Positions 57,036 to 58,797 of a stretch of 64,000 nt of DNA are shown here, one piece after another. Made by a program: the position numbers and the translations under genes. The stretch is from positions 1,054,001-1,118,000 of the forward strand of contig NZ_WRXM01000001.1 in assembly GCF_010119205.1 (NCBI RefSeq), given 5' to 3'. The notes below the pieces were generated by a model, which was not told the origin of the DNA, searched no databases, and saw only the letters and a list, made by a program, of their open reading frames with translations. Origin of the DNA: Haloarcula limicola. GTDB lineage: Archaea; Halobacteriota; Halobacteria; Halobacteriales; Haloarculaceae. Positions within the stretch are counted from its first letter, which is position 1; each line of letters begins with the position of its first letter.

Positions 57036-57051
57036 TTTAGGCCGGCCGAAA
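57036..57051. promoter_or_regulatory. DtxR/IdeR-like box 1 (one mismatch)
   Basis: TTTAGG-CCGG-CCGAAA matches the perfect second box except for one base in the right arm. The start lies 33 bases (about three helical turns) before the start of box 2. Confidence 0.5.
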
Positions 57052-57068
57052 CCGATACGCTTTTGTGT

Positions 57069-57084
57069 TTTAGGCCCACCTAAA
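57069..57084. promoter_or_regulatory. DtxR/IdeR-like box 2 (perfect inverted repeat)
   Basis: TTTAGG-CCCA-CCTAAA has perfect six-base arms. DtxR-family iron or manganese repressors recognise TTAGG...CCTAA repeats. It sits just behind the TATA-like element, where binding would block initiation. Confidence 0.6.
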
Positions 57085-57091
57085 CAATCGT

Positions 57092-57211
57092 ATGCCGGAA
57101 CGACAGGTGCCGTGGCCGAACCGTGGCCGCCGACGCGACGAGACGGGTCTCAGCAGGCCTGCCGTCCGGACCACCGCCGACCGACGGGTCACCGGAGGTG
57201 AGCGCAGGTAA
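57092..57211 (+). CDS. Doubtful 39-residue Arg-rich ORF behind the iron-box promoter
   Basis: Starts MPERQVPWPNRGRRRDE and ends TGGERR. The ATG is 31 bases after a TATA-like element, as expected for a leaderless gene. The composition is basic (about one third Arg), opposite to the acidic proteome of this organism. It could be a small basic regulator, a leader peptide or simply a chance frame within a non-coding RNA. Confidence 0.25.
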   Translation: MPERQVPWPNRGRRRDETGLSRPAVRTTADRRVTGGERR

Positions 57212-57456
57212 CGTCGGACACCTCGATCCTCGACCATGCGCGGCGACGACTACCGTGGGCACGGTCGTCGGGCGAAGGCCCGACGCTGTCGCCGCACCAC
57301 GAGTCCCAGCTCGTGTCTGTCCCATTTTCCGTCGACAGCCGTTCCAGGTTCGGCTGTCACCGGTTTTCGCGTTTTCGACCGTCCCGCTTCTCCAGCGACG
57401 GCAACGGACCGGCCGCGACGGCCGCCGTTGCGCTCGGCTTTCGGCGACCGCGCGGG

Positions 57457-58797
57457 TCACCGGTTCGCGCTCCGCTCTATCTGCTCGATTTCGCGTTCCA
57501 GATACCCCCGCTCGAAGTAGAGCAGTTCGACGGCGACGACCGCGGCGGCGACGACCAGCACCGTGTAGAACGTGTTCGGCTCCCGCTCGTAGAGGTTGAA
57601 CAGCATCAGCGGGAAGAACAGCGCCGAGCCCGCGGCGCCGACCGCCGGCGGGAGCGGGGACACCTCGCCCGCGTCCCGCTGACGGAAGGCGAGATAGCTC
57701 ATCGCGCCGAAGACGACGATGAACGAGAGCGAGGCGAAAGACGTGATCGCGCCGAGGCTGCCCACGGCCGAGAAGGCCGCGGTGACGACGCCGAGGAGGA
57801 GGACGGTCCGCCCCGGCGCGCCGTCGGCGTCGGCGTCGCCGATGTCGTCGGGAAGCAGATCGTCGGTGAGCATCCCCTTGGCGAAGTGGGCCGCGGAGAA
57901 CAGCGTCGCGTTGATGGCGCTCCCCGTGGAGAACAGCGCCGACACCGAGAGCGCGACCGCGCCCGCCGACGCCAGTCCGTACGGCGACATCATCGTCGAG
58001 GCGGCGTCTTTCAGCGCGACGTGCGGGTGGCTCTCGAGCGCCTCCGGCGCGAGGTTGACCGTGACGACGCCGACGAGGACGTAGACGAGTACGGCCACCG
58101 GGATGGAGATGTACACCGCCGTCCGGATGGTCTCGACCGGGTCCTCGATGCTCGCCTGGTCGTAGAACAGCAGCTGCCAGCCCTGGAACGCGACGAAGGA
58201 GACGGCCGCCGCGACGATCGGGCCGACCGTCGCGAGCCGTCCGACCCCGAACTCCAGCGGCGCGCCGCCGTACTCGAGGGCGTACACCAGCCCGAGGACG
58301 CCGAACGCGAGGAGAATGGCGAGTTTCAGGCCGACGAGGACGTTCTCGGCGACACCGGTCGTCCGCGCCCCGAGCAGGTTCAGCGCGACGAACGCGGCGA
58401 CGGCGAGGACGGAGACCGCCGGCCGCGTCGGGAGTCCGGCGACCGACCCCGGCAGCCCGAGCGCGACGGAGAACTCGGCGAACGCGAAGGCGTACATCGC
58501 CATCGACCCGACGTAGCCGAAGAGCAGCGTCCACCCGACCATCCCCGCCAGCGTCGAGTTGCCGACGTAACACTGGACGAACGTCACCGATCCCCCGCGC
58601 TGGTCGCTCAGCGCGTTGAGGGCGTTGTACGAGTAGCCGGCGCAGACGGCGACGACGCCGGCCAACAGGAACGCGGCCCACGTCGCCGCCATCGTGATGC
58701 CGGCGACGACGCCAAGCACCGCGTAGATACCGCCGCCGATCATCCCGCCGAGCGCTATCGCGACCGACGCTGAGAGACCCAGATCGCCGTCGCTCAT
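57457..58797 (-). CDS. APC-superfamily amino acid permease
   Basis: 446 residues, about 12 transmembrane helices. The consensus IALGGMIGGGIYAVLG in helix 1 is the substrate-binding glycine loop of amino acid/polyamine/cation symporters, and FVAFQGWQLLFYDQ matches the helix 6 region. SINATLFSAAHFAKGM is another signature. The C terminus is cytoplasmic and charged (ERGYLEREIEQIERS). The start at 58797 fits the family and has a TTTGAAATC TATA-like element about 30 bases upstream. Substrate unknown. Confidence 0.9.
   Translation of the reverse strand: MSDGDLGLSASVAIALGGMIGGGIYAVLGVVAGITMAATWAAFLLAGVVAVCAGYSYNALNALSDQRGGSVTFVQCYVGNSTLAGMVGWTLLFGYVGSMAMYAFAFAEFSVALGLPGSVAGLPTRPAVSVLAVAAFVALNLLGARTTGVAENVLVGLKLAILLAFGVLGLVYALEYGGAPLEFGVGRLATVGPIVAAAVSFVAFQGWQLLFYDQASIEDPVETIRTAVYISIPVAVLVYVLVGVVTVNLAPEALESHPHVALKDAASTMMSPYGLASAGAVALSVSALFSTGSAINATLFSAAHFAKGMLTDDLLPDDIGDADADGAPGRTVLLLGVVTAAFSAVGSLGAITSFASLSFIVVFGAMSYLAFRQRDAGEVSPLPPAVGAAGSALFFPLMLFNLYEREPNTFYTVLVVAAAVVAVELLYFERGYLEREIEQIERSANR

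Follow-up and report, generated by a model that had tools for sequence, protein, structure and literature searches.

A pair of tandem iron boxes in Haloarcula limicola probably places a small-RNA gene in the iron regulon; the gene would be repressed by a DtxR/TroR-type regulator and induced by iron shortage, and its RNA would probably act in trans. As judged from genome comparison, the boxes belong to the iron regulon and are followed by a conserved, structured, non-coding RNA; that this RNA is transcribed, responds to metal, and acts in trans on targets is what we infer from this arrangement. That an RNA gene lies under an iron repressor is very likely, and for its role as a trans-acting post-transcriptional regulator the balance tips modestly in favor. 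Positions refer to the window, which is the whole 64-kb stretch of DNA that was analysed.

Tandem iron boxes and the iron regulon

The upstream box (box 1; positions 57036..57051, nominally plus strand but palindromic) is TTTAGGCCGGCCGAAA, with one mismatch to TTTAGG-N4-CCTAAA, and the downstream box (box 2; 57069..57084, plus strand) is TTTAGGCCCACCTAAA, an exact match. Between them at 57060..57067 on the plus strand is a putative TATA-like element, a T-rich stretch that nearly all relatives share in this position, and the end of box 1 lies ∼8 bp upstream of it. The first-pass annotation had described two 16-bp boxes at 57036-57084, 33 bases apart and bracketing a TATA-like element, and this description stands, with the 33 bases being the start-to-start distance. 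At two or fewer mismatches the window has no match besides these two boxes, where shuffled sequences give an expectation of 0.05. Among the 31 Haloarcula genomes aligned (the window and 30 genus relatives), box 2 is kept in all and is exact in 29, and box 1 is kept at three or fewer mismatches in 27, at 33 to 35 bp from box 2, and is missing in four. The central N4 of the boxes drifts between species, as expected for an operator.

The same annotation had named absence of the box before iron-uptake genes of this genome as grounds for rejection, and the box does precede such genes. The 3.9-Mb genome has eight exact 16-bp sites, a number that compares with ∼0.019 expected from base composition. 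Siderophore or iron-uptake genes are downstream of most boxes examined. Peripla_BP_2 binding proteins are coded at three other box loci, one of which adjoins an ABC ATPase, and further box-associated loci code for an SBP, a class III aminotransferase (which in our reading fits siderophore synthesis), and a ferritin-family protein of the Dps type. The box–TATA–box–start layout is common to several iron loci, with only a few bases between the second box and the start codon, as in TTTAGGCTCGCCGAAA followed 36 bp further by TTTAGGTGTCCCTAAA, 5 nt, and then ATG. We refer to these sequences as iron boxes because the same box fronts iron-uptake and siderophore genes. DtxR-family regulators are encoded in the genome (PF01325 matches over the cut-off comprise three strong ones, at C1:606731, C5:142705, and C1:1042758, and two weaker ones), and on the combined grounds of over-representation, position before iron genes, and the presence of these regulators, the box is probably a DtxR/TroR-type operator. 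By the same sequence comparison, the promoter of the RNA is predicted to be under the iron repressor's operator, with box 2 at the start site in 31/31 genomes, as it is in iron genes.

Several other box loci are worth recording. Tandem iron boxes precede a gene of the RGP (reversibly glycosylated polypeptide) family (L001:1474-2697), an unexpected member of the iron regulon, and this gene adjoins an SBP gene that has an exact box to itself. An exact box at L008:1501-1836 was considered as another orphan and rejected, as it is followed by a gene for a small acidic protein (100 to 104 aa) with a sub-cut-off Amphi-Trp match; roughly one in three genomes of the genus has DNA resembling this stretch. 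In seventeen sister genomes (L049, L053, L054, L059, L061, L063-L068, and L070-L075), the box pair of the RNA is accompanied by a second tandem pair ∼2.5 kb upstream of it. At L065:657-3183 this second pair fronts a gene for an 822-aa DUF5059 and copper-binding (plastocyanin-like) lipoprotein, which the window's species does not have at this place.

A conserved RNA with a structured 3′ core

The putative small RNA spans 57090..57331 on the plus strand (∼240 nt), the interval in which conserved islands start and stop. Both ends are predicted, the start being set ∼25 nt past the TATA-like element and the T-rich run that follows the final hairpin being taken as the end. The first-pass annotation had named conservation of 57092-57300 at the RNA level as a check, and the boxes and structured RNA are kept in 31/32 genus genomes. 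Searched with a covariance model of the 3′ core, each of these 31 yields one copy, and the single genome with no RNA match is a 71% complete draft.

The conserved islands, set amid variable sequence, are GGRGGTG, a stem with ACCGTGGGCA, a CACGA/TCGTG hairpin, and TCTGTCCC. The GGRGGTG heptamer (57194..57200, plus strand) is invariant in 31/31 genomes (GGAGGTG, or GGGGGTG in three) and is identical to the Shine-Dalgarno core; no consistent start codon follows it within 20 nt in the 31 genomes. As RNA, the 3′ end is formed by a closed stem with ACCGUGGGCA, the CACGA/UCGUG hairpin, and an invariant UCUGUCCC tail. The DNA of this tail, TCTGTCCC (57316..57323, plus strand), is identical in all relatives, and a short T run follows it in this species.

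The proposed structure, all on the plus strand, begins with a closing stem, P1 (57240-57248 with 57287-57295), which folds and has changes on both sides of its pairs. P1 encloses the P2 hairpin (ACCGT-GGGC-ACGGT, 57252-57265) and, in the long form, the P3 hairpin (57266-57285), also with changes on both sides of pairs; the terminal P4 hairpin (CACGAG/CTCGTG, 57298..57315) is paired in every aligned sequence. The stem-loops originally placed at 57251-57285 are thus two helices of a larger conserved fold at 57240-57323. Some species have the long form with the extra, variable P3, and others have a short form that omits it and in which P2 pairing is less certain. In the alignment, 95.2% of cells are paired and five pairs are changed on both sides; the covariation score of the structure is reached by 0/500 shuffles and is lost when the partners are slid. 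The RNAalifold covariation term is small, and covariation is modest because the RNA core is very conserved. Compared with shuffles, four long-form cores and one short-form core are more stably folded (z from −2.2 to −3.1), and two other short-form cores do no better. Because the full-length 244 nt likewise folds no better than shuffles and the 5′ half has no consensus structure, we limit the strong claim to the 3′ core.

The RNA tail is found only in Haloarcula/Halomicroarcula genomes and in one Halobacteriales archaeon MAG. Among 391 genomes of the class, no homologue outside the genus scored significantly, with matches at chance level only and stricter filters losing weak ones. Rfam searches matched no family in the window (two sub-threshold matches, both on the minus strand) and none in a second species; membership in the RyhB, FsrA, PrrF, or any other Rfam family was rejected, with no covariance-model match above threshold.

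We note that the ACCGTGGGCA hairpin also occurs just 3′ of the superoxide dismutase (sod) stop codon in one other genus (L128, L146, L147, and L148) and, within Haloarcula, after second copies of sod (L196 and L197, with a variant in L198). This likeness between the RNA core and the sod hairpin may reflect shared ancestry, a shared binding protein, or coincidence, and we leave it unexplained because the hairpin is absent from 34 other haloarchaeal sod 3′ regions examined.

Coding, antisense, and other readings of the locus

The sole coding content that the first-pass annotation allowed for was a 39-residue Arg-rich frame. This frame exists (57092..57211, plus strand) but has no coding signal, and so we do not consider it to be a gene. 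Counted from its ATG, differences at the three codon positions number 175/153/188 in one clade and 141/146/158 in another, and species G010 (L051) has ACG for ATG and a deletion that removes the frame, although its boxes and RNA core are retained. Equal variation over the codon positions and loss of the frame in one species are the basis for this judgment, and Pfam has no match for the 39-aa frame. A leaderless small protein of 39 Arg-rich residues could nonetheless be made from the promoter, the folded RNA then being merely its 3′ UTR; consistent with this, an ATG is at the predicted transcript start in 30/31 genomes, the frame is open for 36 to 43 codons in most, and nearby iron genes likewise begin just past the box. 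Set against the even spread of changes in both clades, the lost frame in G010, the missing Pfam match, and a composition that is Arg-rich rather than acidic, we regard this as improbable.

The genes beyond the RNA bear on readings that tie it to a neighbor. The RNA of the window is directed toward the 3′ end of a convergent permease gene at 57457, and some other species also have this permease downstream; elsewhere the RNA is followed by a convergent thermosome gene, in a third group by endonuclease III on the same strand, and in one species by a pilin-like gene (names are from Pfam for the window and from reading of translations for the relatives). Because these genes vary between species, the RNA is independent of them, and a conserved role as a 5′ UTR or riboswitch is ruled out for the same reason. 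With presence in 31/32 genomes, no coding signal, and a variable downstream gene, this is by sequence a non-coding RNA gene that is conserved independently of its neighbors. Antisense or read-through RNA acting on the permease gene, which its direction in the window would suggest, is therefore highly improbable, as the RNA persists where the thermosome, endonuclease III, or pilin-like gene replaces the permease and its conserved part stops before the permease gene. An iron-responsive small RNA or an antisense RNA had been offered as the best fit, and it is the small-RNA half that is strongly supported, given the conserved boxes and structured RNA, the compensatory pairs, the lack of coding signal, and the occurrence of the box at iron genes; the antisense half is not supported, as the downstream gene changes. 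Equally hard to credit is a relic promoter whose iron-regulated protein gene has been lost, the DUF5059/copper-binding gene that sister species have at this spot being an example. The second tandem box pair of the 17 genomes, which in the one examined fronts that gene, lends this idea some appeal, but the RNA keeps a separate box pair in those genomes and is itself conserved in all. It is unlikely, too, that the RNA titrates a protein or the ribosome instead of pairing with mRNAs, whether the GUGGGCA hairpin acts as a decoy, drawing off an RNA-binding protein with further sites in some sod 3′ UTRs, or GGRGGUG acts on the 3′ end of 16S rRNA. The heptamer with no start codon after it in 31/31 genomes and the hairpin's recurrence after sod, both in another genus and at second copies in Haloarcula, are in its favor, but the other 34 haloarchaeal sod genes examined do not have the hairpin, wider model matches are at chance level, and GGRGGUG is predicted to be mostly paired. 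The chance that the locus represents a new archaeal class of iron-response RNA, acting as a GUGGGCA-hairpin decoy for a protein shared with some superoxide dismutase 3′ UTRs or through the Shine-Dalgarno-like heptamer on the ribosome instead of by mRNA pairing, is likewise small.

Proposed action and relation to known iron-responsive RNAs

We favor a small-RNA gene under iron repression. When iron is plentiful, a metal-bound DtxR-family repressor (of the Idr, SirR, or TroR type) would occupy the tandem boxes, and with box 2 lying between the TATA-like element and the predicted start, the bound repressor would block initiation. Iron shortage would release the repressor, and the structured ∼240-nt RNA would be made. 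The RNA would most likely act in trans, base pairing via the UCUGUCCC tail, GGRGGUG, or the GUGGGCA hairpin loop and tuning mRNAs when iron is scarce, in the manner of RyhB and IsrR. Base pairing in trans is the common mode of action of bacterial RNAs with iron-repressor promoters, and the invariant tail would suit such pairing. A search of eight genomes for the tail complement GGGACAGACA turned up no target site that is conserved between the loci compared, and the predicted accessibility of the conserved segments is not clearly above that of the rest of the RNA.

Fur-controlled iron sRNAs are present in several bacterial lineages. RyhB, PrrF, FsrA, and IsrR resemble the Haloarcula RNA in being stand-alone non-coding RNA genes whose promoters carry the operator of the iron-uptake repressor; their operators, however, are Fur boxes, whereas the Haloarcula RNA has an archaeal promoter with DtxR-type boxes and is unrelated in sequence to RyhB and IsrR, with no match in Rfam. 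IsrR controls the synthesis of iron-containing proteins (PMC9410917, PMC11257911). Among haloarchaeal iron regulators of the DtxR family, PMC11349517 cites Idr1 and Idr2 in Halobacterium and Idr, SirR, and TroR in Haloferax. The regulon described here is alike in the kind of regulator, the kind of targets, and the boxes before siderophore and iron-uptake genes, and differs in that one putative target is a non-coding RNA gene. To our knowledge, the physiological roles of archaeal sRNAs are mostly unknown. The known haloarchaeal sRNAs (the Haloferax collections and s479) are, like this one, intergenic RNAs of halophilic archaea, and s479 links CRISPR-Cas and zinc transport (PMC8155600). We found no iron-repressor-controlled sRNA of haloarchaea in the open literature searched, the coverage of which is incomplete, including for archaeal DtxR regulons.

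By analogy, the RNA looks like an archaeal counterpart of the bacterial iron-shortage sRNAs, built around another repressor family and an RNA that is not related to theirs. If so, the same circuit logic would have arisen in a second domain from another family of repressors, and research on archaeal sRNAs would gain a gene for which both an inducer and a repressor are predicted and for which the genus Haloarcula offers culturable hosts.
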